DNA from: a virus
Virus record (IMG/VR): IMGVR_UViG_3300042563_003307
Span: 1-64,000 of that record
DNA length: 64,000 nt
Direction: 5' to 3' (one strand)
The position numbers and the translations under genes are program-made. The notes beneath the pieces are model-generated. The model was given only the letters and a program-made list of their open reading frames with translations, made no database searches and was not told the DNA's origin. Position 1 is the first letter of the stretch. Every line of letters begins with the position of its first letter. Shown piece by piece: positions 1,848-33,650 of this stretch.

Positions 1848-2093
1848 TTATTTTTGTATGTCTATAATATCGTATTTGTGGAAACCCTTTTCTATGTTCC
1901 GGATGGCAGCATCGATATCAGTATACTTGCCTTTCCACTGGGTTTCAAAATTACCTTTTACTGTAATTCCTTTAAATCCGTCTGGCGATGCACCTTGGAT
2001 TGTTGTAGTGTCAAATGGTTTATCATAGATAATTTCAATTTGGTATTTACTGGATTCATTTAAGAACGCTTCAAAGGGTTTGATATGTTTCAT
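1848..2093 (-). CDS. small leader-tagged protein, putative internal (packaged) protein
   Basis: 81 aa. It starts MKHIKPFEAFLNESS, the shared leader of about a dozen proteins in this window that resembles the capsid-targeting sequence of T4 internal proteins; predicted processing after FLNE would leave a mature protein of about 68 aa. The rest is a small alpha/beta protein I do not recognise. Its start overlaps the stop of the preceding leader-tagged gene, so the two are co-translated. Packaging in the capsid is an inference from the leader. Confidence 0.7.
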   Translation of the reverse strand: MKHIKPFEAFLNESSKYQIEIIYDKPFDTTTIQGASPDGFKGITVKGNFETQWKGKYTDIDAAIRNIEKGFHKYDIIDIQK

Positions 2094-2497
2094 AATTTTA
2101 AGTAGTTTACTTTGAGTTTGGTTTCTCCTAGGGCCCAGGCCTTAGTGAGTCTGTGGTGGCCGTCGTAGATTACAGGTCCTTCTGGGTATTCGATAACATT
2201 TATTGTTTTGACTTTACCCTCTCTAAGTATCATCTCTGTAACCTTACTAGATTGTATATTCCTTTGAGTGATATGTATATCCTTTGGGTTAATGGTTTTA
2301 GGTTTGGCCTTGTCCTCGTTCTCCTCCCATGTTTGGACTATTTCGCTCCAGGGACGGTTACTGATTTGGAAGATACCATCTATTCGTTTTGCATCATCGA
2401 ATATAGAACCCTTTGGAAGTCCTTCTACCTTTTCGATAGCGGCTTCCTGTTTTTTGGATTCATTTAGGAATTGTTCGAATAGTTTTACAAGTTTCAT
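2090..2497 (-). CDS. leader-tagged ParB/sulfiredoxin-like protein
   Basis: 135 aa. The leader MKLVKLFEQFLNESK is followed by a ParB/Srx-like domain: residues about 70-135 contain KPKTINPKDIHITQ, a short helical stretch, VIEYPEGPVIYDGHHRL and a terminal beta strand. DGHHRL corresponds to the ParB-type D-G-x-H-R box that binds nucleotide in CTPases or is catalytic in ParB-like nucleases. This would be an enzyme delivered with the genome if the leader works as in T4. Nuclease, CTPase or Srx-like activity cannot be told apart from sequence. Confidence 0.7.
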   Translation of the reverse strand: MKLVKLFEQFLNESKKQEAAIEKVEGLPKGSIFDDAKRIDGIFQISNRPWSEIVQTWEENEDKAKPKTINPKDIHITQRNIQSSKVTEMILREGKVKTINVIEYPEGPVIYDGHHRLTKAWALGETKLKVNYLKL

Positions 2498-2500
2498 AGA

Positions 2501-3085
2501 TTAATAGTATGATGGTTCTCCTCTTGTTGCGAATAATGCGGTGATGTATGGTTTACCATCATTAGTGATAATTGCATATCCTCTATCATGTAACCAAGTT
2601 CTAAATTCATTGGCAGTTGAGTTAAAATAGGATTTTGAACTATTCCCAATCTTAAGATCGATAATCGGTTCTCCATCTTCTAGTTTTCCTGCCTTTCCGC
2701 CTTTAAGTGGAATATGGATTAAGGGTCTATTAGGTGTTGTATTACTCTTTTCTGGAGTTAATTTAACGTCCCAATCAAATGATTTTTGTAGGTCCTTCAT
2801 TAGGGCACTGAATACTTTTTGTTTTTCAATGTCTTTAATATCAACTACATCATATCCTGCAGCACGGATTCCGTCTTCAAATTCAGCTCTCATTTCTGGA
2901 GTAAAATCAAGTACCTCTAGGTCTTGGTTCCATGCCCATCTAGAGATGAATTTATCAACATCTTGATTTATTGTTACGTATGGCAATCTATCTGTTTTAT
3001 CAGTGGTTGCCTTCTTAATCATTCCTTTGATACTATAACTTTTAGCCTCGTTTACGAATTGTTCGAATAGTTTTATTTTTTTCAT
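2501..3085 (-). CDS. leader-tagged protein, putative internal protein
   Basis: 194 aa beginning MKKIKLFEQFVNEAKS, with predicted cleavage after FVNE. The mature part (about 180 aa) is not recognised; it is mixed alpha/beta with a basic middle section and ends in ATRGEPSYY. It is the first gene of a three-gene run of leader-tagged proteins. Four bases separate it from the next gene. Confidence 0.7.
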   Translation of the reverse strand: MKKIKLFEQFVNEAKSYSIKGMIKKATTDKTDRLPYVTINQDVDKFISRWAWNQDLEVLDFTPEMRAEFEDGIRAAGYDVVDIKDIEKQKVFSALMKDLQKSFDWDVKLTPEKSNTTPNRPLIHIPLKGGKAGKLEDGEPIIDLKIGNSSKSYFNSTANEFRTWLHDRGYAIITNDGKPYITALFATRGEPSYY

Positions 3086-3108
3086 GATGTGGTTTTATTT
3101 TCTTTTAT

Positions 3109-3276
3109 TTATTTGATTTTTAGGTAGAGTTCTATGATTGAACTGTGTGTTAGGTATATTTGCAAATGACGAGAATCAAGTGTCATATTGTGCTTGATTC
3201 TCGTCACTATTTCTTTTATGTATCTTTGAGGTACATATCCAGTGTCAACATACGCTTTCCATTCCTTATTAGTCAT
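3109..3276 (-). CDS. small hypothetical protein (55 aa)
   Basis: Short reading frame of 55 codons starting MTNKEWKAYVDTGYVPQRYI and ending YLKIK. Its ATG overlaps the stop of the upstream PD-(D/E)XK-like gene (GATGACTAA), a coupling typical of this genome, and it fills a gap that would otherwise be empty. It contains a perfect 13-bp inverted repeat (3168-3180 with 3193-3205) inside the coding sequence. No family recognised. Confidence 0.5.
   Translation of the reverse strand: MTNKEWKAYVDTGYVPQRYIKEIVTRIKHNMTLDSRHLQIYLTHSSIIELYLKIK
3168..3205. repeat. 13-bp perfect inverted repeat
   Basis: GACGAGAATCAAG and CTTGATTCTCGTC separated by 12 bases. There is no T-run directly after it on either strand, so it is a weaker terminator candidate than the others; it lies inside the 55-aa reading frame. 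Confidence 0.7.
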
Positions 3277-4444
3277 CTAAATTATGGTCTATTGTAGGGT
3301 CTTTGATGGTTCTCTCTACAAAATATAGAGATGATGTTGATACCTGTGCTGGTACAAAATCTGTTGTGATATTTATTGTATTTTTACGGAAGACGATGTA
3401 AACTAGTCCAGCATGGATTTGGTTTACAGCCTTCTGCATGTCTACTTCTAAGTCTTTTGGATTTCGGACATATTTTAATCGCTTTAATTCTGATAAAACG
3501 TAGGTTGCTGTTTGGTCAGTTTTTGCTACGTGAAATGTAATGGTATCTCCTGTTATTAGAGCAGGGTCTAATAAGTCGATACTCAATTCGATTGGCTTTG
3601 AATTTGGTCCTCTTAGAATAACATTAGTATATCCTTGTAGACTATTTTCAACTTTAGCGGCTTGTTCGTAGAATGCATTAATGTTTTTGAAATCGGTTTT
3701 ATTACATTCACCTGACATAATGGTTCCTTTTCTTCCCATTAGGTAATTTGCTGCTGCCGTCATTTCAGCAGAGAAGTATTTGCTTATATCAAATTTAGGT
3801 TTTCCAGCAGAATATCCTGTTAGTTTATCGATTCTTGATAGCGTATCACTAATCTCTCTCCAAAATTCAAAGTTACTAACTTTTGATTTTACACCAGCTC
3901 TAATCGCTGAATTTCCATTACTATAATCTTTAACTTCAAAAGCATCTTTGTTGTTAATAATAACATCATAGCTCTCTCCACCACCTTGAATTACTGCACC
4001 TTTAATTAACCATGCAATAAGGGCTTCTCCTTTTCCAAGTCCTGTTGGCTTTTGGTCGAATAATTTACCAAGTACTGAATTTCTGTTTGAATACATCGAA
4101 ACGGTTAAGTCCTTTGGTGCAATTGCTGAATATAAATATTTTGCTAGCTCTACTGACTCTTTTGGATTCAGTGATGCAAAATAATTTAGAATGAAAGTTG
4201 TTGGAATTCCATTTGGATAGTTTTTTGCAAACTCTTTATAATCTACAATTTTTCCTTGTGAGTTAATTGCATTAATTAGAGCCATATTTCCATGAAGAGA
4301 ACCTGGATTATCTACCTCTCCTTGCATACTATCTGCATTAACCTTTTCATTTAATGTTAAATCAAAAGAATTCACTATTGCAGAATCTATTGATGTGTTT
4401 AATGCCGCTTCAAAACGGGCTTTAAAATCTCCTACTGTACTCAT
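3269..4444 (-). CDS. PD-(D/E)XK nuclease-like protein in the virion region
   Basis: 391 aa, unrecognised as a whole. Residues about 145-185 read GKGEALIAWLIKGA, then GGGESYDVII and AFEVKDYS. The spacing E...D-x(8-10)-EVK is that of a PD-(D/E)XK nuclease active site, with the upstream helix carrying GKGE as in many restriction-type nucleases. It lies among leader-tagged genes but lacks the leader itself. It could be a structural or packaged nuclease. The assignment rests on one motif block, so the function is tentative; the gene itself is certain. Confidence 0.6.
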   Translation of the reverse strand: MSTVGDFKARFEAALNTSIDSAIVNSFDLTLNEKVNADSMQGEVDNPGSLHGNMALINAINSQGKIVDYKEFAKNYPNGIPTTFILNYFASLNPKESVELAKYLYSAIAPKDLTVSMYSNRNSVLGKLFDQKPTGLGKGEALIAWLIKGAVIQGGGESYDVIINNKDAFEVKDYSNGNSAIRAGVKSKVSNFEFWREISDTLSRIDKLTGYSAGKPKFDISKYFSAEMTAAANYLMGRKGTIMSGECNKTDFKNINAFYEQAAKVENSLQGYTNVILRGPNSKPIELSIDLLDPALITGDTITFHVAKTDQTATYVLSELKRLKYVRNPKDLEVDMQKAVNQIHAGLVYIVFRKNTINITTDFVPAQVSTSSLYFVERTIKDPTIDHNLDD

Positions 4445-4450
4445 AATTTT

Positions 4451-5002: not shown

Positions 5003-5023
5003 GACATTTGATATTATTTAGTA

Positions 5024-5032: not shown

Positions 5033-5047
5033 AAATTTTAGTAATGT

Positions 5048-9175: not shown

Positions 9176-10936
9176 TTAATTAACGTGTGAATATTTGTAA
9201 ATGTCTCCATTATAAACGCAGAAGTATACGTCGTATCCGGTTACAGTTGATACAATACAAGTATCTGTCCAATTTCTAGGTGTTAGTCCTAGGGCAGTAA
9301 ATTGAGGGCCTTGACCACCACTACCAAAATCTCCAGGTCGGTATTGCCTAATGTCTCCAGTAGTTGTGGAACTTGATTCTCCAGTCCACATGTCGGTATT
9401 TGGTGCTATACTAAATCTTTTTGAATATGAAAATATGCTCGCATATTCAAACGTTGATGAAGCTGCTGGTTTTACGTACATTCCGGAACTTCCTGCACTA
9501 ACATATATGTCTCCATTAGCTGCAGTGGCCATACCTTCCCAGTTTCTAATAGTCTGTCCTGTTGTTGTAAATGTTGTTGCTCCAGATGGTTGTTTATAAA
9601 TATCTCCACCATATACACTAGCATAAATATCCCCATTTGGTGTTGCTGTTATACCATTCCAGTTTCTAATAGTCTGTCCTGTTGCAGTAAATGTTGTTGC
9701 TCCACTTGCTTGCTTAAGTATATCTCCAGTATATAGTGCATAATACATGTCTCCATTGGGAGCACCTGCGAAACAACCTGCTCCGGGTATAGTCTGTCCT
9801 GTTGCTATAAATGTGCCACTAGCTGCGGATTTTTTATAGATAGCTCCAGTACTAATGGAAGCATATATATCTCCATTAGCCGCGTCTCCAATAGACGTCC
9901 ATGTTCTAGAAGTTTGACCTAACGGAGAAAGACTTGGAGTACTCCAACTATTTCCTTGTGATATATAAAATGTAGCCGAAGCTGCGGATTCGTTACCTGA
10001 TAAATCAACAGCAGTAACCCACCAAGTAATTGGGGCGCCACCACCAAAACCTCCAAAGAATGTATTGCTAATGCGCATTGCACTTTTTCCAACAAGATAA
10101 GATCCTATGGTATCATAACGCGTCGGAAGAGAAATATTTCTTGGTCTAGTATATTTTCCTAAAGTAGAAAATAGTATAGGGAATATTTTAGGTACAATAT
10201 GAATTGTCTGTACTGTAAAACTTCCAGATTCCCTAACATATAGGTTATAGTGATGCAACATATCATTGTCAGTTGAAGGATCCCATGTAAAATCAATATA
10301 CCTCGTAGTACCTCCAATTATAGACTTTGCTCCCGTAAAGTTAGGAGGTGTTGATGGAGCCACATTAGGACTTTCATAAACTGAAGTATAAATTCCTTGA
10401 ATTATGCTAGATTCGTCTATATAATATATAAGGGGATTTGTCCCTCCTTGTCGTTGATACCATCCTTGAGAATATGTTTCTTCTACTCCAAACCCAGAAG
10501 CACCTCCAGTATTACTACCATATACTATTGAACCTACTACCGGTGGGTTATCTGTTACCCAAAATGATACAAAAAGCGAATCATTTTGAACTAATGGACC
10601 GCCGTAATCGGTATGTTTATAAGAAACGTATTTGGCCACGATTGTATCTGCAACCGTAGAATATATCCATGAATTTGTTGGGTCTATATTTATTCCGTAA
10701 TATACCAATGGAACTCCACTTGCCCAAGCACTTTTAGGAACTAATTGTAAACTCCCATACGTACTTAAATTACTTGCATTAAGGCTATATTTTGCCTGCA
10801 TAGCAGTTTTATCCATACATTGATTAGCCGCAGGAAGTGTTGTAAAATGAGACTGACCCGACAGCAGAGGAATTCCACTCGTCGAGGCATCTAGATAACT
10901 AACCATTTGATTACTTGCAACATCATTCCATGCCAT
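9176..10936 (-). CDS. tail-fibre-like protein with FN3-like and propeller-type repeats
   Basis: 586 aa. The middle (about 190-330) looks fibronectin-like (PPNFTGAKSIIGGTTRYIDF, then SGSFTVQTIHI). The C-terminal half has five to six units of about 45 aa with the core NGDIYASVYGGDIYKQ...TGQTIRNW, the spacing of a beta-propeller or solenoid blade. It starts inside the stop codon region of the S74 fibre (1-nt overlap at 10936) and is therefore coupled to it. Probably an adhesion fibre or a fibre cap; ligand unknown. Confidence 0.7.
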   Translation of the reverse strand: MAWNDVASNQMVSYLDASTSGIPLLSGQSHFTTLPAANQCMDKTAMQAKYSLNASNLSTYGSLQLVPKSAWASGVPLVYYGINIDPTNSWIYSTVADTIVAKYVSYKHTDYGGPLVQNDSLFVSFWVTDNPPVVGSIVYGSNTGGASGFGVEETYSQGWYQRQGGTNPLIYYIDESSIIQGIYTSVYESPNVAPSTPPNFTGAKSIIGGTTRYIDFTWDPSTDNDMLHHYNLYVRESGSFTVQTIHIVPKIFPILFSTLGKYTRPRNISLPTRYDTIGSYLVGKSAMRISNTFFGGFGGGAPITWWVTAVDLSGNESAASATFYISQGNSWSTPSLSPLGQTSRTWTSIGDAANGDIYASISTGAIYKKSAASGTFIATGQTIPGAGCFAGAPNGDMYYALYTGDILKQASGATTFTATGQTIRNWNGITATPNGDIYASVYGGDIYKQPSGATTFTTTGQTIRNWEGMATAANGDIYVSAGSSGMYVKPAASSTFEYASIFSYSKRFSIAPNTDMWTGESSSTTTGDIRQYRPGDFGSGGQGPQFTALGLTPRNWTDTCIVSTVTGYDVYFCVYNGDIYKYSHVN

Positions 10937-21165: not shown

Positions 21166-21181
21166 AATTTTTTCTTTTTTA

Positions 21182-21190
21182 TTATATATT
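21182..21190 (-). promoter_or_regulatory. AATATATAA putative late promoter
   Basis: ACGAATATATAATAAAA on the minus strand, 17 nt before the 99-aa gene that leads into the giant fibre. Confidence 0.4.
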
Positions 21191-21219
21191 CGTAAATCAG
21201 GAGGGACTCCTTATAAGGG

Positions 21220-21831
21220 TTAAGAGTCTATTGAAGATTTAATTTCTTTTTGTAGGGAATCTACTGTGCTTTTATCCTTTTTTAAGGATTTTACAAGGAT
21301 TCTTTTAATATCAGAATCTGCCATTTTAATAAGTTTTTCAGTGGACTTCATTCTGGCATCAAGTTTAACAGTACTTACGTATTTTTGAAGAGTTTCATTT
21401 TCCTGTCCAATAGCATCCATGTTATCAATGATTGCATTTTCTAGTTCGGTTAATGAATCCTCTTTAAGTTGAAATGCTGCACTACCGCTATTAGTACTAC
21501 TGCTACTATAAGAACTTGGACGTGATGTTTCAGAATATGTATATGGGTCCTCTTCTGCTGAAGCTTCAGCTTCAGCTTGAAGTTCCTCAATTTGGTCTTG
21601 TTCAATTTTTAACTTTCCAAGTTCAACTCTAACGTCAACCAATTTATCTGCTAATTGTCGAAGTTTTCTCTTTTTCATTGGATTTAAAAAAATACCCTTA
21701 ATCCAATCAAAGAAACCCTCATTTATAAGTTGATTGATTTGTTCTTCATTCAGTTCGCCTTCATGAATTCTATGGATTTCTTGAACCATATCGCTCATTT
21801 GGTACTCTTCAAATAATTTAACCTTTTTCAT
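21220..21831 (-). CDS. leader-tagged coiled-coil protein
   Basis: 203 aa. Starts MKKVKLFEEYQMSDMVQEI, a variant of the shared leader, and a second motif LINEGFFDWIKGIFLNP occurs at about 34-50, where cleavage after INE would give a mature start. Long helices follow (about 55-95 and 125-203) with a Ser-rich linker between (SETSRPSSYSSSSTNSGSAA). Candidate internal or scaffold-type protein. It is the only leader-tagged gene lying between the fibre genes. Confidence 0.65.
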   Translation of the reverse strand: MKKVKLFEEYQMSDMVQEIHRIHEGELNEEQINQLINEGFFDWIKGIFLNPMKKRKLRQLADKLVDVRVELGKLKIEQDQIEELQAEAEASAEEDPYTYSETSRPSSYSSSSTNSGSAAFQLKEDSLTELENAIIDNMDAIGQENETLQKYVSTVKLDARMKSTEKLIKMADSDIKRILVKSLKKDKSTVDSLQKEIKSSIDS

Positions 21832-22494
21832 TTAGAATTGTGGAATTGCTCCAATTTTTTTAGCACGTTTTCTCCAAAGATCGACCACTTGTGTTCTCTC
21901 CGGTTGACTTAAACCTTGAGTATCTAAGTATCTATTTAGGGTATTTATCATTATTTCTCCGCGAACTTGAGATTCTAATCGGAGTCCTTCTAGATTTGCA
22001 TCAATTTCTTTGGGTAGGATGAGGTAGGTTGATTGAGGTAAGAGCCCTTGGTGTATCAATTCACGTTCCATAGAATCATCACCAGATGGCTTGCCAGGTA
22101 TGTAGTTTCCAATGCTCTCACCACCTTGGGTTATATGTTCTACTTCATGTCGGACAACATCAATAAGATGGAAATATAGTTCACTAAAGTATTCAGGAAG
22201 CCAAGCGGCTTCGATACCAAAATCAATAATTATAAATGGCGTTTGAGAGTTGTCATCATTGTCAAAGTCTCGACTATCGGCTCCTGTTGAATCAAATGAT
22301 GTGAATCCTAGGATTGGTTGTCCATTAACACTTCCAAAATAAATTGTAGCATCAATGTCGAATTCGGGTCCATTCGCTTTTACTTGTTTAAATAAGGTTG
22401 AATGGGTTTTGCCTAAATGATAGTCCAAATTCCATTGAGCAAAAATATCATTTGCTAACCTTAAAGACATTCGGTCAAGTGTTTTTTGAGTCAT
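21832..22494 (-). CDS. putative zincin metallopeptidase-like protein
   Basis: 220 aa. VVRHEVEHITQ at about 128-138 is an HExxH zinc-binding helix; a glutamate-rich stretch further on (RELIHQGLLPQ, EIDANLEGLRLE) could give the third ligand. Nothing else matches a family I can name. It abuts the leader-tagged coiled-coil gene (start one base after that gene). In a fibre region, a metallopeptidase could process virion proteins or host surface material, but that is an inference. Confidence 0.55.
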   Translation of the reverse strand: MTQKTLDRMSLRLANDIFAQWNLDYHLGKTHSTLFKQVKANGPEFDIDATIYFGSVNGQPILGFTSFDSTGADSRDFDNDDNSQTPFIIIDFGIEAAWLPEYFSELYFHLIDVVRHEVEHITQGGESIGNYIPGKPSGDDSMERELIHQGLLPQSTYLILPKEIDANLEGLRLESQVRGEIMINTLNRYLDTQGLSQPERTQVVDLWRKRAKKIGAIPQF

Positions 22495-22569
22495 ATTCTT
22501 GTTTAATATTATATGAACCCATTCTAAAAAGTTTATCTATATTTTATAAAATTATATACGAAGATATTT

Positions 22570-23628
22570 TTAAAAACCACAGCTCGCACTAGTGTCTCCA
22601 ATAACACCTTCTGTTGATATTTCGTATAAGCCACCGTCCCAATAAGTTCCAGACGCAGGATAGGCTTGAGTTTGATTTAATCCAAAATAAAGACCACCTC
22701 CATTATAAGGAAATGTTAAAAGAGAATTAGTATATACGATATCTCCAGTAGAAAGTGCAGCTAGACTTTTTGCAGCAAAAAGAGGTTCAGTGACTTCATA
22801 CGGAGGAGCGCAGCCTGGGTTAGTTTCAAAAACGTTGTCGGATCCGCCAATGGGAGTCCTATAAAATTGATAAAATGCAGGAACTTCCAGTCGATTAACT
22901 AATTTAATGTTACCTTGAGGCACTGAATTAACCTTGAATGTTGCACCCGGTGATATACTTAATACATATTGTCCTAATCCAGGAGTTCCAGTTTCTACTA
23001 CAAGGTATGGTGCCGTTCCGGAAATGTTCAATGCAGTGTAAAGAATAGAATCAGTAGGTGGCGATAGATATAAATAATCATAATTATAATCTACAAGTGC
23101 AAGTCGGATATCCGGTTGTGTGTTAAACGCATCAATAGCATTGGCATTTAAAGATATAGCATTCCATCCATCGGTTGGAGCTACTGGAGTTGCAATATAA
23201 TCGGTAGTATTACCGCTCATTGATCCACCTGTGTTGTATCCTGATATTTGGAAGAAATCAGCTGCTGAAATATTTGTGGTAGTTGATGGTTTATCTGCCT
23301 GCACTACCATAATATTATTAGCTAGATCTCCTCCAAAGTGTACCCATAATGTTGCAGAAGTGATTTGAGTTGTAAAGCCACTGTCCATTGTAGAAAATGC
23401 CATAAAGTATCTACTAATTGCTGCTCGCCAATTGCCGAATGTGAAATTGTTCCAAGAAGCTCCAATGGAGTCTTGTACATCTTGATTAACTCTAGCAATA
23501 GGAAGGTTACCATATCCATTATCACGGTTAGATAGCCATTGATTTTGGTCAAATTGTTCTCCAAAGGAATCTGAATCTTCAACTAAAATGCTTCCTCTAG
23601 TTGTCGCTGATGTTATATTATATTCCAT
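22570..23628 (-). CDS. virion beta-sandwich protein
   Basis: 352 aa, beta-rich, with an N-terminal half (about 20-215) patterned like a DNRLRE/carbohydrate-binding sandwich (SATLWVHFGG, GWNAISLNANAIDAFN, ALVDYNYDYLYLSPP). The C-terminus is a second beta domain ending DTSASCGF. Its start overlaps the stop of the 878-aa collagen-like gene by 1 nt. Likely a tail-fibre tip or adhesin partner; no close family recognised. Confidence 0.6.
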   Translation of the reverse strand: MEYNITSATTRGSILVEDSDSFGEQFDQNQWLSNRDNGYGNLPIARVNQDVQDSIGASWNNFTFGNWRAAISRYFMAFSTMDSGFTTQITSATLWVHFGGDLANNIMVVQADKPSTTTNISAADFFQISGYNTGGSMSGNTTDYIATPVAPTDGWNAISLNANAIDAFNTQPDIRLALVDYNYDYLYLSPPTDSILYTALNISGTAPYLVVETGTPGLGQYVLSISPGATFKVNSVPQGNIKLVNRLEVPAFYQFYRTPIGGSDNVFETNPGCAPPYEVTEPLFAAKSLAALSTGDIVYTNSLLTFPYNGGGLYFGLNQTQAYPASGTYWDGGLYEISTEGVIGDTSASCGF

Positions 23629-26264: not shown

Positions 26265-26269
26265 ACGTT

Positions 26270-26779
26270 TTATTTATATTTATAGTATAGTTTCTTTAAT
26301 TTTTCTACAGAATCTTGAAAATAGATTGAAATATATCCGCATTCAATATAGTTATATTGCAGTAAAATATATTCATTAAGTTTAAAACTATCAAAAAGTT
26401 CTTTAACTTCTATCATGTCAATTAAATATCCTTTATTTAGGTTTAAAATTGAAATTTTATTAACATTTGAAGTTTTTGTTACAAATTCTTCTCCTGAATT
26501 ATAGACTAAATTTTTATCTGTATCATTTTTATCAAAACTAAATGATTTTAATTCAAAAAGATTAAGTGACTTACAATCCAGATTTTCAAATCCTGAAGGA
26601 CTTGCCCATCGCTCAATAAATGCTATTAGAACATCAATGTTCTCAAATTTAACAGTTTTAGTAATGTTGGTATGATGTTCCCTCATAGAAAAAAGCATGT
26701 TAAAAACTGGACCTTCATTCTGTTGAATTTGGTCTAAGTATTTTAGGGCAATATTGAGAGATATTCTGTCAAGTATCAT
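26270..26779 (-). CDS. hypothetical protein
   Basis: 169 aa, start MILDRISLNIALKYLDQIQQ. Its stop lies 5 nt before the collagen-like gene and its start abuts the coiled-coil membrane protein. Alpha/beta, aromatic and Asn/Lys-rich, no motif recognised. Position suggests a virion or assembly role. Confidence 0.6.
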   Translation of the reverse strand: MILDRISLNIALKYLDQIQQNEGPVFNMLFSMREHHTNITKTVKFENIDVLIAFIERWASPSGFENLDCKSLNLFELKSFSFDKNDTDKNLVYNSGEEFVTKTSNVNKISILNLNKGYLIDMIEVKELFDSFKLNEYILLQYNYIECGYISIYFQDSVEKLKKLYYKYK

Positions 26780-27172
26780 TTATACGAAATATTTTCTCAT
26801 TAGAAATGTAACTATTGCTCCACTTGCTGTTAATAAGGCAATAAGTACTTTAACAACTCCATTTTTCCATCTGACAAGAGATTTATGTTCTTCAATTAAT
26901 TTATCACGCTCAACCTTCCATTCCTCTTGTTCTTGTCTAAATTCTGAATTCTTTTTATTTTCTACAATCACACCATCAAAGGGATTCAGGAGTTGTTTTT
27001 TCAATCCTCTAATCTCTTCTTTCATTTCATTTTGATTCTCCATCAATTTTTCTAATGTGTTCTCTATTTGAATATAATTAGGGTCTTCAATTCGTCTTTT
27101 GAATGAAGAAAATAAATCATACAGTTCAAGAATCATTTCTTGTGGGCTTTGGTCTTGCTTCATATACAGCAT
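26780..27172 (-). CDS. coiled-coil protein with C-terminal membrane anchor
   Basis: 130 aa. Long charged helices (about 15-100) followed by a single membrane segment at about 105-125 (VLIALLTASGAIVTFLM) and a basic tail RKYFV. The ATG at 27172 sits in the arm of a 16-bp inverted repeat, and a second ATG three codons later (27163, MKQDQSPQEM) is equally possible. Tail-anchored topology; function unknown. Confidence 0.6.
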   Translation of the reverse strand: MLYMKQDQSPQEMILELYDLFSSFKRRIEDPNYIQIENTLEKLMENQNEMKEEIRGLKKQLLNPFDGVIVENKKNSEFRQEQEEWKVERDKLIEEHKSLVRWKNGVVKVLIALLTASGAIVTFLMRKYFV

Positions 27173-27218
27173 TGGGTCTTTTTAGTCTATAATATATATC
27201 AAACTAAAAAGACCCAAT
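27171..27218. repeat. 16-bp inverted repeat with late-promoter-like loop
   Basis: ATTGGGTCTTTTTAGT (27171-27186) and its exact complement ACTAAAAAGACCCAAT (27203-27218), with a 16-nt loop containing TTGATATATATTATAG on the minus strand. Each arm can act as a hairpin, with a T/A run inside the stem. The nearest start codon (27172) overlaps one arm, so the loop element would be the promoter for the leftward gene. Confidence 0.6.
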
Positions 27219-27244
27219 GTGGGTTTTACTATGTATTTATAGGA

Positions 27245-27715
27245 TTATTTATATAACTTTGCAGTAAAGTTACGGGCTCCTCTTGGAAGATTCTCGCCGT
27301 GAGGTCCTTTTGCTTTATAATCTTGTAGTAATTTAATGGCCTCTTCAGGTGATGTTGCTTCAACTTCCCAATCCCATTCCATTCCATTCGTATCATCGAA
27401 AAATACTGTGTAAATACTTTTCTTTGCTTCATCTATTCCAGAGCCAATTTCAGGAGTTCCATAGTGTGCAATCCATTCTTCTCTAGTCATGTTAGCAGCT
27501 TGAGCCTGCATTCCTAAGAAATCATATTCATGCATAATTGTTTCAGATTCTGTAACTTTATCATAAAGTTCAGTATCTCCATTCCATTTCCAATCAGCAG
27601 CATCAAAATCTTTAAGTTTCTTAGCTTTTTGATATTCTGAAGACGATAAATGGTCAGCATTAAGATTTATAGCACCTTCGCCAATAAACTCTTCGAATAA
27701 TTTTACTTTTTTCAT
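27245..27715 (-). CDS. leader-tagged protein, putative internal protein
   Basis: 156 aa starting MKKVKLFEEFIGEGAINL, with predicted cleavage after FIGE. The C-terminal half (about 95-145, SIYTVFFDDTNGMEWDWEVE...SPEEAIKLLQDYKA) looks like a small ferredoxin-type alpha/beta domain. This is the last gene of a leftward run of seven leader-tagged genes (27.2-31.2 kb). Confidence 0.7.
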   Translation of the reverse strand: MKKVKLFEEFIGEGAINLNADHLSSSEYQKAKKLKDFDAADWKWNGDTELYDKVTESETIMHEYDFLGMQAQAANMTREEWIAHYGTPEIGSGIDEAKKSIYTVFFDDTNGMEWDWEVEATSPEEAIKLLQDYKAKGPHGENLPRGARNFTAKLYK

Positions 27716-27722
27716 ATCTTTA

Positions 27723-28529
27723 TTAATTTTTTGGCCAGATCATTAGAGTTCCTGGATCGTTCCATTCTAACCACCAACCTGTTTTTTCAACTGTTGTTCT
27801 AAACTGTTTTAGTACTCCATTAGCATATTTTGATGAGTTGCTATAGTAATCAAAAATTGGATTACCTCCAAGTTCTTCTCCATTATCACCTGCGATCCAA
27901 ATTCCTTCAGTTTGTCCGTTGAATTCTTCAGAAGTTCGGACAGTTCTAAGTTTGTATTTAGTTTCTAATAGGTTCATCAATTCGTCTCTAGTAGAATCTT
28001 TTGCCTCATTCATAAATGATTCTGTAAGATTACCATCCTTGTCTATGGCATCTGAATAAAGATATTCTCCTTTGCCATTGTAAGTAACTGTTTTTGCTAC
28101 ATATTCTTTTGTCTCAGGATTCCAATAATGAGTTTTACCACCAGGTTCTGTCATTTTTTTCAGGACTCCATTTCTAGCATTACTAATTAGTGTTGCATTA
28201 ACCTTTGCAGTTAAGGTGTCGTGATTTGTTAATTTATCTTGGGAGGCTGCTGCTAAGGCTTCATTAGTAACTGATTCATTCCAAACAACCTGTCCTCCAG
28301 CATCTTCAATATGAAACTTGGCTCTTGGAAATTCTTTTTTAAGGGCTTCATATTTTGCAGGGATCAAGTCTTGAATTTTAATATTGTTCGACTGTCCAAC
28401 TACTTTATTATACTCAATGGCTACAATCGACCATGGTCCACCATCTCCGGCTCTAACGCCTTTCATCATTTTACCCCAAGAAGTTGTGGCTTCTGCGATA
28501 TATTGTTCAAATAATTTTACTTTTTTCAT
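27723..28529 (-). CDS. leader-tagged multi-domain protein with internal leader-like motifs
   Basis: 268 aa. Leader MKKVKLFEQYIAEATTS, then two internal copies of the same kind of site: WNESVTNEALAAA (about 107-120) and LTESFMNEAKDS (about 168-180). Each precedes what looks like a new domain: about 15-106, 118-168 and 180-268. The last domain (YKLRTVRTSEEFNGQTEGIW) resembles a short single-strand-nucleic-acid-binding fold only loosely. Cleavage after each NE would release three mature peptides. Domain functions unknown. Confidence 0.7.
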   Translation of the reverse strand: MKKVKLFEQYIAEATTSWGKMMKGVRAGDGGPWSIVAIEYNKVVGQSNNIKIQDLIPAKYEALKKEFPRAKFHIEDAGGQVVWNESVTNEALAAASQDKLTNHDTLTAKVNATLISNARNGVLKKMTEPGGKTHYWNPETKEYVAKTVTYNGKGEYLYSDAIDKDGNLTESFMNEAKDSTRDELMNLLETKYKLRTVRTSEEFNGQTEGIWIAGDNGEELGGNPIFDYYSNSSKYANGVLKQFRTTVEKTGWWLEWNDPGTLMIWPKN

Positions 28530-28891
28530 AGTGAATAAAAAGGTCCTTTGTTTATTTTTTTAAGATATGTCATTTCAGAGTCAGTCAATTTAGATGCAAT
28601 TAACTTTTGCCATTGTCCTCTTTGTTTTGTACGAGGTAGTAATAAAAATTGTTTAATGTCCTCATCACTTTCTAGACGTGAAACAATTTTAGTAACGGCA
28701 GCATCCGATTTCCATTTTTTATATTGGTCTTTCCAAGACGTTGAGTTTTGAAAGTCTTGTCCTGCGTCAGTTCCTAACCACATTGCAAAAATCCATGGAG
28801 AAAACCATGTAAGTCCCCAAGCAACTGGTAAAAGAGTATCTATTAGATTAGCCTCGTTAACAAATTCTTCGTATAGTTTTACATGTTTCAT
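28526..28891 (-). CDS. leader-tagged small membrane-like protein
   Basis: 121 aa if started at MKHVKLYEEFVNEANLI, the start that aligns with the other leaders and overlaps the upstream stop as ATGA; a start six bases earlier is also possible. The segment after the leader (about 20-38, LLPVAWGLTWFSPWIFAMWL) is strongly hydrophobic, so the mature protein would have an N-terminal membrane-inserting helix. The rest is helical and basic. Candidate injected membrane-active protein. Confidence 0.7.
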   Translation of the reverse strand: MKHVKLYEEFVNEANLIDTLLPVAWGLTWFSPWIFAMWLGTDAGQDFQNSTSWKDQYKKWKSDAAVTKIVSRLESDEDIKQFLLLPRTKQRGQWQKLIASKLTDSEMTYLKKINKGPFYSL

Positions 28892-29655
28892 TTCCATTTT
28901 AAGTTTAATTCATCAGTCATTGCATCCATTAAATCATTAAATTTAGACGGATCTTTCATTACTGCTTTTATCTTAGTTTTTATCTCATCATCAGATAGTT
29001 TCAAATTTCTTACCCAACCTTTAGCATCAGCTAGATTCATTGGGTCTTTAAAGAAATCTTTTATATTGGTAGATTCGTTAACTGTAGATTCATGAACACC
29101 TGGTCCATTTTCTATTTTCTCTAATGAAACCCAATATACTTTATCATTTCCGTAATTGTCTACAAAACTGGATTCTACGCCTGTCCATCTTTTAATAAAT
29201 TTACCTAAACCTGATTGAGGTCCTCCGTATTTATCGTCTTTTACTTTAACCATTAAATATTCCTCATTACTTGAGGGTCTCTTTGATGGGGCCTTAAACT
29301 CTACAACATTGAATTGTTTTCTGATTAAAGTTTCCAGTTTTTTAATATCGCTATCAATTCCATTATTAGATTCCTTAATTGGAATTTCCGGCATGTATTT
29401 ATATTTTTGGTATTGATTGTTTGAAAGCTCTGTAGCCTTAATGTACTTTTCTAACTGATCGACTGTATTAAATATACGTCCACCTGCATCAATATCATAA
29501 CCTTTGTAGTATTGGTTATATTTGGCAGCAAGTTTTCCACCATTCATTTTCTCCCATTCTTTCTTAAAAAGAATTTGGTCGTTTCCAACAATTTCATTTG
29601 GAAATACATCCTTACCTTCAGTAATGTACTGCTCGAATAATTTTACTTTTTTCAT
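28888..29655 (-). CDS. leader-tagged two-domain protein
   Basis: 255 aa. Leader MKKVKLFEQYITEGKDV. A second site GVHESTVNESTNIKDFF occurs at about residues 186-202 and precedes a short helical domain (about 200-255). The first domain (about 14-185) has a GGRIF...LEKYIKATE segment and a beta-rich part with LGKFIKRWTGVES. Neither is recognised. Confidence 0.7.
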   Translation of the reverse strand: MKKVKLFEQYITEGKDVFPNEIVGNDQILFKKEWEKMNGGKLAAKYNQYYKGYDIDAGGRIFNTVDQLEKYIKATELSNNQYQKYKYMPEIPIKESNNGIDSDIKKLETLIRKQFNVVEFKAPSKRPSSNEEYLMVKVKDDKYGGPQSGLGKFIKRWTGVESSFVDNYGNDKVYWVSLEKIENGPGVHESTVNESTNIKDFFKDPMNLADAKGWVRNLKLSDDEIKTKIKAVMKDPSKFNDLMDAMTDELNLKWK

Positions 29656-29664
29656 ACTAATGAA

Positions 29665-30039
29665 TTATACTCGAGAAACCCAAGTATATATGTTTTTGTT
29701 AGGAACTCCTAATAGAGTATCTCGAACTTCCATTCTAATTAAATAATCTTTATCTGTTTTACCATCAATAAACTTACAAGTGATTACATCACCGGTTTTA
29801 GCTTTTGATAGGTCCAAAGATGCAATGTCTCTAACACTGAATCCTGCTGATTCAGGTGATTTACCTTTCTCCCAGAAACTAACTAATGCCTGTGCCGCTT
29901 TAGTTGAATCATTATTTGCTTTTACAGTATTGTTTGAACCAATACTTGGTATGGTAACTTCTTCCCAGTAGGTTGCACCACTCATTTTCTCTTTTTTTGA
30001 TTCATTTACAAATCCTTCGAATGTAGATATGTGTTTCAT
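29665..30039 (-). CDS. leader-tagged protein, putative internal protein
   Basis: 124 aa from the MKHISTFEGFVNESKKEK start, which aligns with the other leaders and follows the upstream stop at 30041; an upstream in-frame ATG at 30126 lies inside the previous gene and would hide the leader. Mature domain beta-rich (DLSKAKTGDVITCKFIDG), like a small SH3/OB-type fold. Confidence 0.7.
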   Translation of the reverse strand: MKHISTFEGFVNESKKEKMSGATYWEEVTIPSIGSNNTVKANNDSTKAAQALVSFWEKGKSPESAGFSVRDIASLDLSKAKTGDVITCKFIDGKTDKDYLIRMEVRDTLLGVPNKNIYTWVSRV

Positions 30040-30040
30040 A

Positions 30041-30511
30041 TTATTGTACTTGTATATTTGTTCTAATTGATAATCCTGAATAACCATTCCAGATTCCAAT
30101 GTTAAAGTCTGGTATAATTTTTTCAATTTTCTTTAAATTACCAATATGTATTGCGGTCATTGGTAATTCTATAAACCAAACTCCATAATTTGTAGTTGCA
30201 GTTAATTGATATTTTTTCATACCAATTCCAATAAGACTATCAATTATCTTTTGAACCTCTTCTGGATATACTTCAGACTTTGCCTCGTTTGTAAGACTTT
30301 CATTTTCATTCCAAATAGTTTGTAACCAAGCCTCTAAACTTTTGAGTTCTTTAACTGACTTTGGTTTGCCATATTCGTCCATAAAAGCCTTTCTGAATCC
30401 CGTGAAAGAATCTGCCTCTTGAGCCATGATATGAATATCTCCAATACTGGATTCATAAATAAAGGATTGAGACTCTCCTAAGAACTCGTTAAATAGTTGC
30501 ATATGTTTCAT
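30041..30511 (-). CDS. leader-tagged protein with one internal site
   Basis: 156 aa. Leader MKHMQLFNEFLGESQS; an internal ENESLTNEAKSEVYPEEV (about 69-86) separates a helical first part (GFRKAFMDEYGKP) from a C-terminal alpha/beta domain (about 85-156). No family recognised. Confidence 0.7.
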   Translation of the reverse strand: MKHMQLFNEFLGESQSFIYESSIGDIHIMAQEADSFTGFRKAFMDEYGKPKSVKELKSLEAWLQTIWNENESLTNEAKSEVYPEEVQKIIDSLIGIGMKKYQLTATTNYGVWFIELPMTAIHIGNLKKIEKIIPDFNIGIWNGYSGLSIRTNIQVQ

Positions 30512-30513
30512 GA

Positions 30514-31200
30514 TTATTCTATTGATGTTACATCTTTTTCTAAGTTTTCAGTTGAAAACTCGATAGGTAATGAAACGTAACTCTTTTTAGTATCGCCATA
30601 AGGGGCTGCAAAAATCTTTCCGGAAGAGATTCCAGAAGTTTTAGTAACTTTCCATGTTTCACCATCTTTAAAGTTTAGAATAGTACCAACTTTAATGTCT
30701 TTAACATTGATTCCTTCGCTAACTTCTGATTCATTAACTTCAAATCCATCTGATTGGATTGCTTTCTTAGCCTTACGCAATTCAACTGCATTTTTGGCTT
30801 TAACCATCATCTCTTCAGAATCTATTCCAGGCTCTGCAATCGCATCAACTCCAGCATCATGTAAAATGTTTTGAACGTATTCTACGTCATCCTCATCGGT
30901 ATTGTAATTAAAAGAGAATGAATATTCTTTAGCTTCATTTAAGTTTCTTTCAAAGATTAAACCCGGGTCTTGTAATGCACTACTACCAGAAATATTTTTG
31001 GCAATAGCCATAATAACATCTTCATATCTTTTTTTAGTTAATGATTCGCTATGTTCTGTATTTAATACAGGTGCAATCTGTTTAACTAATTTATCTATTA
31101 AAGATGTATCAATTTTAGACTTCCTTGAATTAATACTTTTATTAGAAACTGATATCATAGCTTCATTTAAGAATTCTTCGAATAATTGTGTATATTTCAT
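30514..31200 (-). CDS. leader-tagged multi-domain protein, first gene of the cluster
   Basis: 228 aa. Leader MKYTQLFEEFLNEAMIS. Internal sites FERNLNEAKEYSF (about 88-100) and FEVNESEVSEGIN (about 155-167). The middle domain (about 98-150) reads YNTDEDDVEYVQNILHDAGV...MMVKAKNAVELRKAKKAI, an ACT-like or ferredoxin-like unit; the last domain (about 165-228) is a small beta barrel (VGTILNFKDGETWKVTK). A GATATATAA element lies 24 nt upstream. Confidence 0.7.
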   Translation of the reverse strand: MKYTQLFEEFLNEAMISVSNKSINSRKSKIDTSLIDKLVKQIAPVLNTEHSESLTKKRYEDVIMAIAKNISGSSALQDPGLIFERNLNEAKEYSFSFNYNTDEDDVEYVQNILHDAGVDAIAEPGIDSEEMMVKAKNAVELRKAKKAIQSDGFEVNESEVSEGINVKDIKVGTILNFKDGETWKVTKTSGISSGKIFAAPYGDTKKSYVSLPIEFSTENLEKDVTSIE

Positions 31201-31223
31201 ATTATTAATATATTATATTTTGT

Positions 31224-31232
31224 TTATATATC
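31224..31232 (-). promoter_or_regulatory. GATATATAA putative late promoter made from a gene end
   Basis: The last codons of the nucleotidase gene, CTT GAT ATA TAA (L-D-I-stop), form the element; it precedes the run of seven leader-tagged genes. Confidence 0.55.
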
Positions 31233-31679
31233 AAGATTTTCAAGATAGTTTATAATCTCGGTCCAATCCTCAAATCCTGGTTGTCCAAACTGAATCCATT
31301 CTCCACGGAATTCGGCAGCGCCATTATTTGGACGGTCGTCGATTAAGAAATCACCAATACAAAGGTCTTTACGATGTGAGATAATTAACCTCTTGTGCGC
31401 ATATTTACCAAGATTCTTTTGTACCCATCTTCTTTTAGATGAGAAACTTGTTGGATTGCTCCAAGGTGCAGTTGTTAGGAAATAGATGTCAAATTTATCC
31501 CATAGGTATTTGACTGCTTCAATAGCACCTGGAATAGGTTCTGGTTCTTCAAAAAGTTCTTTGTCAATTGAAGTTAACCTCCCAAGTTTTTCAACGGCAT
31601 TGGGTCCATGTCTCTTGATTGCATGACTCTCTAAGTCTACCATTACTCCATCAAGGTCAATATAAAGTATTTTTTTCAT
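31224..31679 (-). CDS. 5'(3')-deoxyribonucleotidase-like HAD protein
   Basis: 151 aa. HAD motifs: I, YIDLDGVMVDL; II, FLTTAPWSNP; III, RLIISHRKDL; IV, LIDDRPNNG. The size and the PGAIEAVKYL and APWSNP signatures match 5'(3')-deoxyribonucleotidases (NT5C type), which dephosphorylate dNMPs. Phages use them for pool control or to handle modified or host-derived nucleotides. It is the first gene behind class A promoter copy 2. Confidence 0.75.
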   Translation of the reverse strand: MKKILYIDLDGVMVDLESHAIKRHGPNAVEKLGRLTSIDKELFEEPEPIPGAIEAVKYLWDKFDIYFLTTAPWSNPTSFSSKRRWVQKNLGKYAHKRLIISHRKDLCIGDFLIDDRPNNGAAEFRGEWIQFGQPGFEDWTEIINYLENLDI

Positions 31680-31694
31680 AGTGTTTTAATTATA

Positions 31695-31710
31695 ATGTAA
31701 ATATAAACAA
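31695..31710 (-). promoter_or_regulatory. class A promoter (copy 2)
   Basis: TTGTTTATATTTACAT on the minus strand, with TTTTACCG 11 nt upstream (31722-31729). It reads into the nucleotidase gene. Confidence 0.8.
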
Positions 31711-31712
31711 AA

Positions 31713-31738
31713 AACCTGACACGGTAAAATGTCAGGTT
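31713..31738 (-). terminator. terminator hairpin containing the class A box
   Basis: AACCTGACA-TTTTACCG-TGTCAGGTT followed by TTTTT on the minus strand. The loop is exactly the upstream promoter box, so one element ends the incoming transcript and starts the next: a PeSL-like cassette. Confidence 0.75.
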
Positions 31739-31757
31739 AATTATTTTTGTTAAAGTT

Positions 31758-32000
31758 TTAATATTTATCGTTACGTCTTCTTTCGTCTCTTTTATACAAT
31801 CTTCGAAAAACCATAGATAGCCCAAAGAATGATCCCGCAATACAATACAAAGCGAAATTCGCCCATAGCAAACTTCCAGTCATCCCTATCAGCCAATATT
31901 GGACGGCGTCGAACCCCAAAGGGTTGAAAAACAGGGCTAACATCATGCACCATGTCGCCAGGTTTGATTTGGTTATTTTTATTTTTTGTATAAGTTTCAC
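31758..32000 (-). CDS. small two-helix membrane protein
   Basis: 80 aa read from a GTG start. Two membrane segments: about 17-36 (WCMMLALFFNPLGFDAVQYW) and 45-63 (LWANFALYCIAGSFFGLSM), then a basic tail RRLYKRDERRRNDKY. The hydrophobic pattern makes this the real frame; a competing frame (31792-32013) from an ATG covers the same DNA. The start could also be an internal ATG (about codon 19). Role unknown. Confidence 0.55.
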   Translation of the reverse strand: MKLIQKIKITKSNLATWCMMLALFFNPLGFDAVQYWLIGMTGSLLWANFALYCIAGSFFGLSMVFRRLYKRDERRRNDKY

Positions 32001-32042
32001 TATCGGGGTCCATAATTATTAATTTAGTTAAAATACTGAATA

Positions 32043-32537
32043 TTAAACGAAATATATTTCTTCGAAGTGAAGAACATCAAGTTTATTATTAACATTAATT
32101 AATTCTAATGCATTAATTAAGTCAGAATATTCAATAACAGAATCTGTTTGAATTTGTCTAAAACCTTGTAAGAAATCAAAGGTTGCCAAATCAATTGCAA
32201 AAATTGATTGAGAATCTTTCATATATTTATTAAAAAGGTCCAGTTCTAATTGGTAAGCTTTTTCAACAATATCAACTAGACTTGTAAATTTAAAATTAGG
32301 TTCAACCTTTGGTAAGGCAGGAACACAATTCCAATCTACTAAATACTTTTGTAATTTTTGAGCATGTTCTAATTCTGATGCAGTTTCACCAGCAAAGAAA
32401 GCTGTTGCATTTTTGTAGTTTTTATCAGCACACCAGTTGTGAGCAGCGTTGTAAAAATAATGTGCAGTGTACTCATCACCAATTCGGGCATTAAGAGTAT
32501 TTACTACCACGTCACTAAGAGTCATTGGATTTACCAT
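32043..32537 (-). CDS. ferritin
   Basis: 164 aa, the length of bacterial non-haem ferritin. Helices carry the ferroxidase ligands: E22 in GDEYTAHYFYNAA, E55 and H58 in GETASELEHAQKL, a Glu in the third helix (YQLELDLFNKY) and FRQIQTDSVIEYSDLI in the fourth. A complete ferroxidase centre predicts iron oxidation and storage in a 24-mer cage. GATATATAA lies 25 nt upstream, so it is probably made late, alongside the lysis gene. Phage ferritins are rare. Confidence 0.8.
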   Translation of the reverse strand: MVNPMTLSDVVVNTLNARIGDEYTAHYFYNAAHNWCADKNYKNATAFFAGETASELEHAQKLQKYLVDWNCVPALPKVEPNFKFTSLVDIVEKAYQLELDLFNKYMKDSQSIFAIDLATFDFLQGFRQIQTDSVIEYSDLINALELINVNNKLDVLHFEEIYFV

Positions 32538-32561
32538 AAAATTTATTATATTTTTTATAGG

Positions 32562-32570
32562 TTATATATC
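32562..32570 (-). promoter_or_regulatory. GATATATAA putative late promoter
   Basis: TGGATATATAACC on the minus strand, 25 nt before the ferritin start and directly after the stop of the glucosaminidase gene. Confidence 0.5.
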
Positions 32571-32572
32571 CA

Positions 32573-33142
32573 TTAATTAAAAAGTTTCTTTAGGCTACGA
32601 CTTTCTACAATTTGTTTAACTTTATTAACATACCCAGGGTCTTCTGCATAACTTGCATCCAAATATTGATAGTACTCCGATTCACTTTTAATATTTCCTA
32701 AGTACCTACTCTGATAGAATGCATAATCATAGACACTTTCTCTCCACGAATTATATTCAGCATGGTTAAGATTGGTCCCAATTGATGTGGTTATCCTGGA
32801 TTTGGCCTCTCGCATACCAAAGAGATTATTGTTCTCAAGGAAAACTTCGCTCTTCCATTGGCCAGTTTCTATCATCGATTGTGCCATAGGAATCCATGGA
32901 TATCTTACGTTTAAGTCAGCAAGCATAGTAGCCATCTTCTCTTTACTAAATGCATCCTTTTCATTAATGAGGGTGATTCTCTCCTCTGATGTTAAATTTT
33001 GAATAGAATTACTGAGTCCAATCTGGTACGCGATAAAACTCGCGCTAATAAACATAATTAAAAAGATGGTTCCAATCTTAAAATAAATAGATGTTCTAAT
33101 CCTTTTAAATGCTAAAGAATCTTTGCAATAAGTGTAAATCAT
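32573..33142 (-). CDS. membrane-anchored glucosaminidase (GH73/FlgJ-Bax type)
   Basis: 189 aa. A signal-anchor segment lies at about 21-44 (YFKIGTIFLIMFISASFIAY). The catalytic domain (about 80-189) carries the GH73 core MAQSMIETGQWKSEVFLENN, with Glu as general acid, NNLFGM, and YAFYQSRYLG...YLDASYAEDPGYV. It should cleave the glycan strand of peptidoglycan from the membrane outward: a lysis or entry enzyme. Behind class A promoter copy 3. Confidence 0.8.
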   Translation of the reverse strand: MIYTYCKDSLAFKRIRTSIYFKIGTIFLIMFISASFIAYQIGLSNSIQNLTSEERITLINEKDAFSKEKMATMLADLNVRYPWIPMAQSMIETGQWKSEVFLENNNLFGMREAKSRITTSIGTNLNHAEYNSWRESVYDYAFYQSRYLGNIKSESEYYQYLDASYAEDPGYVNKVKQIVESRSLKKLFN

Positions 33143-33163
33143 AATTTAGTGTTTAATATTAAT

Positions 33164-33179
33164 ATGTAAATATAAACAA
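33164..33179 (-). promoter_or_regulatory. class A promoter (copy 3)
   Basis: TTGTTTATATTTACAT with TTTTACCG at 33191-33198, spacing 11 nt. CCTGACA on one side of the box is conserved from copy 2, but the matching right arm of the hairpin has been lost. Confidence 0.8.
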
Positions 33180-33199
33180 AAAACCTGACACGGTAAAAC

Positions 33200-33248
33200 T
33201 TTTATTGAATTATTTTCAATAAAAAAAGCGTACCATAAGATACGCTTT
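33200..33248 (-). terminator. tandem terminator hairpins
   Basis: TTTTATTGAA/TTCAATAAAA (about 33200-33225) and AAAGCGTA-CCATAAGA-TACGCTTT (33225-33248). On the minus strand the second is followed by a T run. They end the transcript of the 55-aa gene and shield class A promoter copy 3. Confidence 0.75.
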
Positions 33249-33255
33249 AATTCTT

Positions 33256-33423
33256 TTAACCCGGACCGCCAACTCCAAACATTACCAAGTCTTCCGATTC
33301 ATAGTAATCTAAATCAAAATAATCGCAGTCAAAACGGACTACTTCATTAATTTGATCCTCGTTAATCTTTTCTTTAACCCTTGGAATGTCTATCAAAGTG
33401 GCTTCTGCTTCGATAAACTCCAT
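33256..33423 (-). CDS. small acidic protein (55 aa)
   Basis: 55 codons, MEFIEAEATLIDIPRVKEKI to a C-terminus FGVGGPG, with a very acidic DCDYFDLDYYESED stretch. It is flanked by a GATATATAA element upstream (33456-33464) and a terminator directly downstream, so it is an independent unit. No family recognised. Confidence 0.6.
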   Translation of the reverse strand: MEFIEAEATLIDIPRVKEKINEDQINEVVRFDCDYFDLDYYESEDLVMFGVGGPG

Positions 33424-33455
33424 TGTATTAAGATATTTTAGGTTTTAGTACCAGT

Positions 33456-33464
33456 TTATATATC
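33456..33464 (-). promoter_or_regulatory. GATATATAA putative late promoter made from a gene end
   Basis: The end of the preceding gene, GGC GAT ATA TAA (G-D-I-stop), is the element; 33 nt before the 55-aa gene. Confidence 0.5.
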
Positions 33465-33650
33465 GCCTTTAATTCGGTCTTCCCAGTAAGATGCATAATC
33501 TGCAACAGTTCCTTTGAATTGTCGAATTTTTACCAGTCTTGGGTCTTCGCCATCTCCTGGTTCGACTGGATTAATTTCATTATTAGGTTGAATATCCTCT
33601 AAGCCGATTGTTTTGGCCTCGTCAATTGTAAATTCTTTAAATGTTTTCAT
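33456..33650 (-). CDS. small leader-tagged protein with T4-like leader
   Basis: 64 aa starting MKTFKEFTIDEAKTIGL. This is the leader closest to the T4 internal-protein targeting sequence (MKTYQEFIAEA). The mature part of about 52 aa contains EINPVEPGDGEDPRL and a helical C-terminus. Isolated from the main cluster, among membrane and metabolic genes. GATATATAA ends only 4 nt before the ATG. Confidence 0.65.
   Translation of the reverse strand: MKTFKEFTIDEAKTIGLEDIQPNNEINPVEPGDGEDPRLVKIRQFKGTVADYASYWEDRIKGDI

Follow-up and report, generated by a model that had tools for sequence, protein, structure and literature searches.

The 64,000-base window analysed here, bases 1-64,000 of the 234,066-base IMG/VR virus record IMGVR_UViG_3300042563_003307, raises the question why a set of genes with unlike bodies should begin with one short leader peptide, and what becomes of the proteins that carry it. 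A first-pass annotation of the window had listed twelve such genes and proposed that the leader is a T4-like capsid-targeting signal on packaged and injected proteins. The analysis revealed that the cleavage end of the leader is also repeated inside several of these proteins, at the edges of modules that are exchanged between genes, and T4-type capsid targeting of a cargo strung like beads and cut apart by the prohead protease is probably the best reading of the sequences.

The leader and the head protease

Matching was performed with the strict expression MKxxx[LFTP][FY][EN]x[FY][LVIT]xE[ASG], which is found in ten of the twelve listed genes (1848, 2090, 2501, 27245, 27723, 28526, 28888, 29665, 30041 and 30514; genes are named by their lower coordinate in the record), making ten of the 506 ATG starts of window open reading frames (ORFs) of at least 40 amino acids (aa), and which gave no match in 200 rounds when residues 2-20 of every ORF were shuffled, confirming that the shared leader is real. 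ATG starts at 28891 and 30039 were used for 28526 and 29665, respectively; the matches in these two and in 159982 had looked protein-internal because the first-pass starts were over-long, and all three are leader genes. The exception is 21220, which starts with MKKVKLFEEY but has no E/[ASG] there (the slash marks a predicted cut), its next site being LINE/G at residues 35-39, and 33456 is a variant, MKTFKEFTIDE/A, which is close to the beginning of T4 IPI (MKTFKEFT).

In the whole record the strict DNA pattern is matched 21 times, always on the minus strand (reversed control 0), and a looser protein scan gave 29 rows, from which 58301 and 222992 were removed as not being leaders and to which 33456 was added. 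This brings the record to 28 leader genes, every one of them minus-strand, so that twelve was an under-count, and further variant leaders were seen by eye in 153007, 158135, 160319 and 211437. The majority letters of 85 distinct leader proteins, drawn from the collected loci, read M-K-[HKY]-[IV]-K-L-[FY]-E-[QE]-F-[ILV]-N-E-[ASKG], and E/[ASG] falls exactly between residues 13 and 14 in 16 of the 28 own leader genes (manual count). The strict DNA pattern is present in 29 of 36 records, two of them near-identical to the window's own record, and the reversed-pattern control gave 0.

Judged by its core genes, which include a head maturation protease (PHROG 207, 1.5e-40), a major head protein (PHROG 138, 5.7e-41), a large terminase and a tail sheath, the record belongs to the T4 superfamily. 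The protease is of gp21 type (BLASTP against T4 gp21, E 6e-11) and is encoded beside a gp23-type capsid protein, while gene 120391, directly upstream of the protease in the place of T4 genes 67/68, has the leader-like start MKIIKTFEEF. The protease motifs GELDHP, ISSRAAG and DLVADPG are each retained in 60 of 62 sequences, and the catalytic domain is closed by V-N-E/[AS] in 59 of the 62 using one regular expression and by the class hydrophobic-x-E/[ASG] in 61, a Glu site that is likely to be a self-cut. In the capsid protein the residue after KLYE is D or E in 57 of 61 sequences, which does not settle the cleavage rule.

In T4 the first ten residues of IPIII are enough for incorporation into the head, with residues 4 and 7 weighing most in targeting and 8 and 10 in processing, and gp21 cleaves after L/I-x-E (PMC9026906). 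IPIII starts with MKTYQEFIAEA and IPI with MKTFKEFTSTTTPVSTITEA, with cut positions deduced from the motif, and the phage leader retains F/Y at position 7, a hydrophobic P3 and Glu at P1 (P residues being counted back from the cut).

By its protease the phage has no close neighbour in the phage collection: among the best 40 of 1133 records the nearest protease shows 38.8% identity and the top matches are unannotated uncultured phages of 462-735 kb; the protease of Chryseobacterium phage MA9V-2 is 29% identical. A 606,700-base contig in a SAR324 bacterium bin (L193, CAJJCY010000001.1) encodes a protease that is 71% identical over residues 3-376, and may be a misfiled huge phage. A DNA search of the phage collection with positions 20000-34000 of the window gave no match, nor did tblastn with the protein of 30514 or with leader protein 151428. 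Ribosomal protein S21 was looked for in the 234-kb record and not found, and the record is therefore not tied to the bS21 phages of PMC9723584.

Candidate internal cleavage sites and exchanged modules

Several leader proteins look like polyproteins, a feature overlooked by the first-pass annotation, as the cleavage end of the leader (typically ESxVNE/[ASG]) is repeated inside them at module boundaries. The motif ES..[NTSG]E/[ASG] has five occurrences in the leader proteins of the window, two of them in 27723 and one apiece in 28888, 30041 and 30514, and looser internal sites are found in 30514, 27245 and 21220. Five were observed in the own leader proteins against a shuffled mean of 0.19 (maximum 3). 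Outside the window a 1029-aa protein (160319-163408) carries nine sites of this kind, and a 913-aa protein (153007-155748) has one by the same regular expression, three by DNA pattern and more variants by eye. For 72 leader proteins from loci L031-L156 the count is 27 sites in 12,575 aa (2.15 per 1000), compared with a shuffled mean of 0.7 (maximum 3) and 1 for the reversed motif. Other ORFs of at least 150 aa hold 97 sites in 244,618 aa. Without the 11 ORFs having two or more sites, of which ten are by eye leader-like polyproteins and one is a protease, the figure is 60 in 237,270 aa. The DNA pattern of the site is present in 24 of 37 records, its reversed form giving 4 hits in total, of which three come from the window's own record and those near-identical to it. 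These counts come with the qualification that the internal motif had already been seen when the expressions were written, and that many relatives were retrieved by module queries, so that the sample of relatives is biased. Outside the window, a cytidylyltransferase-like protein (L026:15774-17644; genome 155773-157644) also has such a site at its C terminus, with a stretch resembling the leader behind it (VTESVTNEIMTFEQFINKDI).

That the bodies are unrelated, as first stated, proved true only in part, since across relatives they are rearranged modules. The stretch GKSFxFSFNYNTDEDDVEY stands behind an internal site in 30514, directly behind the leader in the related loci L035, L036 and L038 and within a 655-aa polyprotein of L153. 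Likewise, DVFPNEIVGNDQ follows the leader in 28888 and an internal KRFIKQFVNE/S in L036, and STNIKDFFKDPMN, the last module of 28888, has its own leader gene in L036. The first module of 153007 resembles the last module of an 831-aa L142 protein (59% over 98 residues), and by eye there is a resemblance between beads of the L142 and L144 proteins and two single leader genes of this phage, 137760 and 157666, as well as window gene 33456. L035 shows an in-frame fusion of two leader genes that has left the second leader intact. In record G007 (L191:199-2181) one polyprotein contains two tandem copies of an 82-aa module, the site repeating at an exact 246-base spacing, which marks a recent bead duplication.

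When analysing the module edges, a junction was defined by a module that lies inside one protein but opens another, the leaders of the subjects were stripped and a broader site definition was used; the conclusion on module edges rests on this test. Of 17 distinct junctions, 10 lie exactly on E/[ASG], 13 are no more than one residue away and 14 no more than two, a number that stays at 14 for five residues, where random positions in the same proteins gave means of 0.34, 1.0, 1.6 and 3.2 and maxima of 3, 5, 7 and 9 (2000 draws). In a separate comparison of 21 rows, 13 extend to the leader cut position, all 13 with E/[ASG], and the remaining 8 start further downstream, with no Glu at the extrapolated position. 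A clustering of 99 proteins gave 67 architectures and eight clusters that can follow either a leader or another cluster; these counts are a rough guide, as clusters were built by single linkage and some (M1) join unlike segments. When window modules were compared with relatives, the rate of nonsynonymous substitution (dN) was below the synonymous rate (dS) all 12 times, ranging from 0.007 vs 0.51 to 0.061 vs 0.19, which argues against functionless spacers and cannot separate cargo from core proteins.

Possible cargo functions and features of the window

One hint of a function lies outside the window, where the product of 84671 (L023:1672-2213; genome 84671-85213) passes the curated cut-off for Acb1 with a match at 1.9e-7. 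This candidate against the cyclic oligonucleotide-based antiphage signalling system (CBASS) has a leader reading NE/K and lies beside two more leader genes, and the match makes delivery of counter-defence together with the DNA a testable idea. A DUF5856 bead in the L144 polyprotein also scores above cut-off, and matches of 85715 (ATP-grasp-like) and 137366 (Lcl_C-like) fall below it. Most bodies in the window gave no match above the curated cut-off, PADLOC run on 10 proteins gave no match, a PDB sequence search with 30514, 2090 and 84671 gave nothing useful and Foldseek with the models gave no match at E 0.001 or better.

AlphaFold2 models are confident in islands only, both for 30514 (9 sequences, mean predicted local distance difference test score, pLDDT, 51) and for the 1029-aa protein (6 sequences, mean pLDDT 41). 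The model of 30514 becomes confident from residue 164, adjoining the predicted SE/G site between residues 162 and 163. In the 1029-aa protein the better islands are at roughly 408-465, 886-936 and 949-1029, the low-confidence stretches between them hold the sites at 471, 883 and 946, and the other six sites lie in regions where the model is too poor for judgement.

Table 1. Leader genes and candidate cleavage sites in the window (/ marks the predicted cut)
Feature	Position	Strand
Leader gene, 81 aa, MKHIKPFEAFLNE/S	1848..2093	-
Leader gene, 135 aa, MKLVKLFEQFLNE/S, weak ParB-like match	2090..2497	-
Leader gene, 194 aa, MKKIKLFEQFVNE/A	2501..3085	-
Partial-leader gene, MKKVKLFEEY, 203 aa	21220..21831	-
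Candidate cleavage site LINE/G of 21220	21715..21729	-
Leader gene, 156 aa, MKKVKLFEEFIGE/G	27245..27715	-
Looser internal candidate site VTE/S of 27245, adjoining module junction	27545..27556	-
Looser internal candidate site IDE/A of 27245	27425..27436	-
Three-module leader gene, 268 aa, MKKVKLFEQYIAE/A	27723..28529	-
Internal candidate site ESVTNE/A of 27723	28258..28277	-
Internal candidate site ESFMNE/A of 27723	28003..28022	-
Leader gene, 121 aa, MKHVKLYEEFVNE/A	28526..28891	-
Leader gene, at least 2 modules, 255 aa, MKKVKLFEQYITE/G	28888..29655	-
Internal candidate site ESTVNE/S of 28888, exactly on module junction	29071..29091	-
Leader gene, 124 aa, MKHISTFEGFVNE/S	29665..30039	-
Leader gene, at least 2 modules, 156 aa, MKHMQLFNEFLGE/S	30041..30511	-
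Internal candidate site ESLTNE/A of 30041	30282..30301	-
Three-module leader gene, 228 aa, MKYTQLFEEFLNE/A	30514..31200	-
Internal candidate site ERNLNE/A of 30514, exactly on module junction	30931..30951	-
Internal candidate site ESEVSE/G of 30514, confident model part starting beside it	30712..30732	-
Variant-leader gene, MKTFKEFTIDE/A, 64 aa	33456..33650	-

Elsewhere in the window, very long collagen-like repeats (QGFQGAQG) occur in putative tail-fibre proteins at 13778-20869 (minus strand), 10936-13638 and 23628-26264, the largest being 2363 aa. The start of a thymidylate synthase gene (PHROG 160) is overlapped by a homing-endonuclease-like ORF (PHROG 314), at 34184-35458 and 35373-35933 (minus strand), and the ORF at 32043-32537 (minus strand) is ferritin-like by eye. 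A nicotinamide phosphoribosyltransferase at 60567-62096 (minus strand; PHROG 448, 4.5e-191) hints at metabolism of nicotinamide adenine dinucleotide during infection.

Proposed packaged polyproteins and other explanations

In the proposed mechanism the leader would act as a T4-type capsid-targeting sequence that draws its bearers into the prohead core, where the gp21-type protease would cleave behind the leader Glu. The mature bodies would remain in the head as internal proteins and would probably be ejected along with the DNA, to serve as cargo in counter-defence or takeover. One leader could import a whole string of modules, which the same protease would separate at each of the internal ESxVNE/[ASG]-type sites. 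Such sites may come from in-frame fusion of adjacent leader genes and may then act as joints for module exchange among genes and phages. What was first read as T4-like capsid targeting is backed in part by the resemblance of the leader and by the gp21-type protease and gp23-type capsid protein, from which packaging, cleavage and injection are deduced.

Diverse internal proteins with only a leader in common are already known from T-even phages (PMC3012670). IPI, IPII and IPIII of T4 are similar in their MK start, F7, hydrophobic P3, Glu at P1, small P1' (the residue after the cut), diverse bodies and homologous protease; the T4-type hydrophobic-x-E before a small residue is found strictly in 16 of the 28 own leaders and as variants in 12. 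The present system differs from them in having 28 genes in one record, a leader of mostly 13 residues and internal sites that divide the bodies into modules open to exchange. Phages and conjugative elements also have polyvalent proteins, which combine several unlike domains in a polypeptide thought to be co-injected with DNA, but their processing is ascribed to metallopeptidase domains of their own, and the available text of PMC5512222 describes no prohead-protease sites between domains; the present proteins have several modules each, with functions assigned for few. A further comparison is with the ejection proteins of the phiKZ-like phages (phiKZ, 201phi2-1, SPN3US), in which a gp21-like protease processes many head proteins behind Glu, some at more than one site (PMC9026906, PMC10052503). 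The extra cuts described there lie in propeptides that are removed, whereas the pieces between sites in the present proteins are modules also found as separate genes, and instead of S/A-x-E and long propeptides (motif according to PMC9026906) the leader has I, L or V at P3 in 81 of 85 proteins and a length of 13 residues. The N-terminal signal of DarB in phage P1 is enough to package a reporter (PMC9024508), a likeness by description, in a different phage group and with a single 250-kDa protein. Searches of the open-licence literature found no account of a cargo made as polyproteins, with cut sites repeated along them and beads that can be exchanged.

Several observations weigh against a packaged and processed cargo. 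E/[ASG] is lacking between residues 13 and 14 in 12 of the 28 own leaders (seven have K, R or I after the Glu at position 13 and five have Glu elsewhere), position 4 is mostly I/V where IPIII has Y (T4: Y or F), and the strict leader is missing from 7 of 36 records, namely four IMG/VR records, LR756501, MA9V-2 and T4. The broad site hydrophobic-x-E/[ASG] is barely enriched in the own leader proteins (10 vs a shuffled mean of 5.9, maximum 14), and three of the 17 junctions are off site by 7, 7 and 17 residues. A first edge test with the strict expression was weak, with 1 of 30 within five residues (expected 1.6), because alignments extended into the leader and the expression missed variant sites; at wider limits it gave 11 of 30 within ten residues (expected 3.0) and 12 of 30 within 15 (expected 4.4). 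Functions are recognised in few modules only, and the structure models are of low confidence with few relatives in the alignments.

The multi-site proteins might instead be degradable head-core (scaffold) proteins whose fragments exit the prohead, with only the simple leader proteins as cargo, as happens to gp22 in T4 and to long propeptides in phiKZ-like phages. In favour of this, cleavage of T4 core proteins yields several fragments, most of which are lost from the head (PMC9026906), SPN3US propeptides undergo repeated cleavage (PMC10052503) and no enzyme domain was recognised in the 1029-aa or the 913-aa protein. This is nevertheless considered unlikely, as the same modules occur singly behind a leader in relatives, which is the place of cargo, and one relative's polyprotein contains DUF5856; dN below dS points the same way, although a scaffold could give the same. 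Somewhat less probable still is packaging and delivery of intact proteins in the manner of polyvalent proteins, with the internal E/[ASG] as uncut linkers or recombination joints left by fusion. The fusion in L035 does retain a leader inside, and the virion RNA polymerase of N4 is packaged unprocessed and large uncut multidomain proteins are injected (PMC5512222), but the joints keep Glu and a small next residue in the same form as the leader end and the protease domain end, which speaks against a mere scar, since a scar would decay. A leader unrelated to the capsid, sending proteins elsewhere in the infected cell, would fit its three extra residues compared with IPIII and the NE/K of some leader genes; it is very improbable given the T4 likeness at F7, P3 and P1, the leader-like start of the gene in the 67/68 place and the same V-N-E/[AS] at the protease domain end.

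Returning to the proposed prohead-cut cargo, we lean towards a picture of an uncultured clade of jumbo T4-like phages in which one leader imports up to about ten small effector modules that are separated inside the capsid, and in which the cut site doubles as a recombination joint through which the arsenal is reassorted. If true, the phage head protease would play for the cargo the part that polyprotein proteases have in other viruses, and leader and internal site together would offer a way to read from sequence what a large group of uncultured phages packages as cargo.

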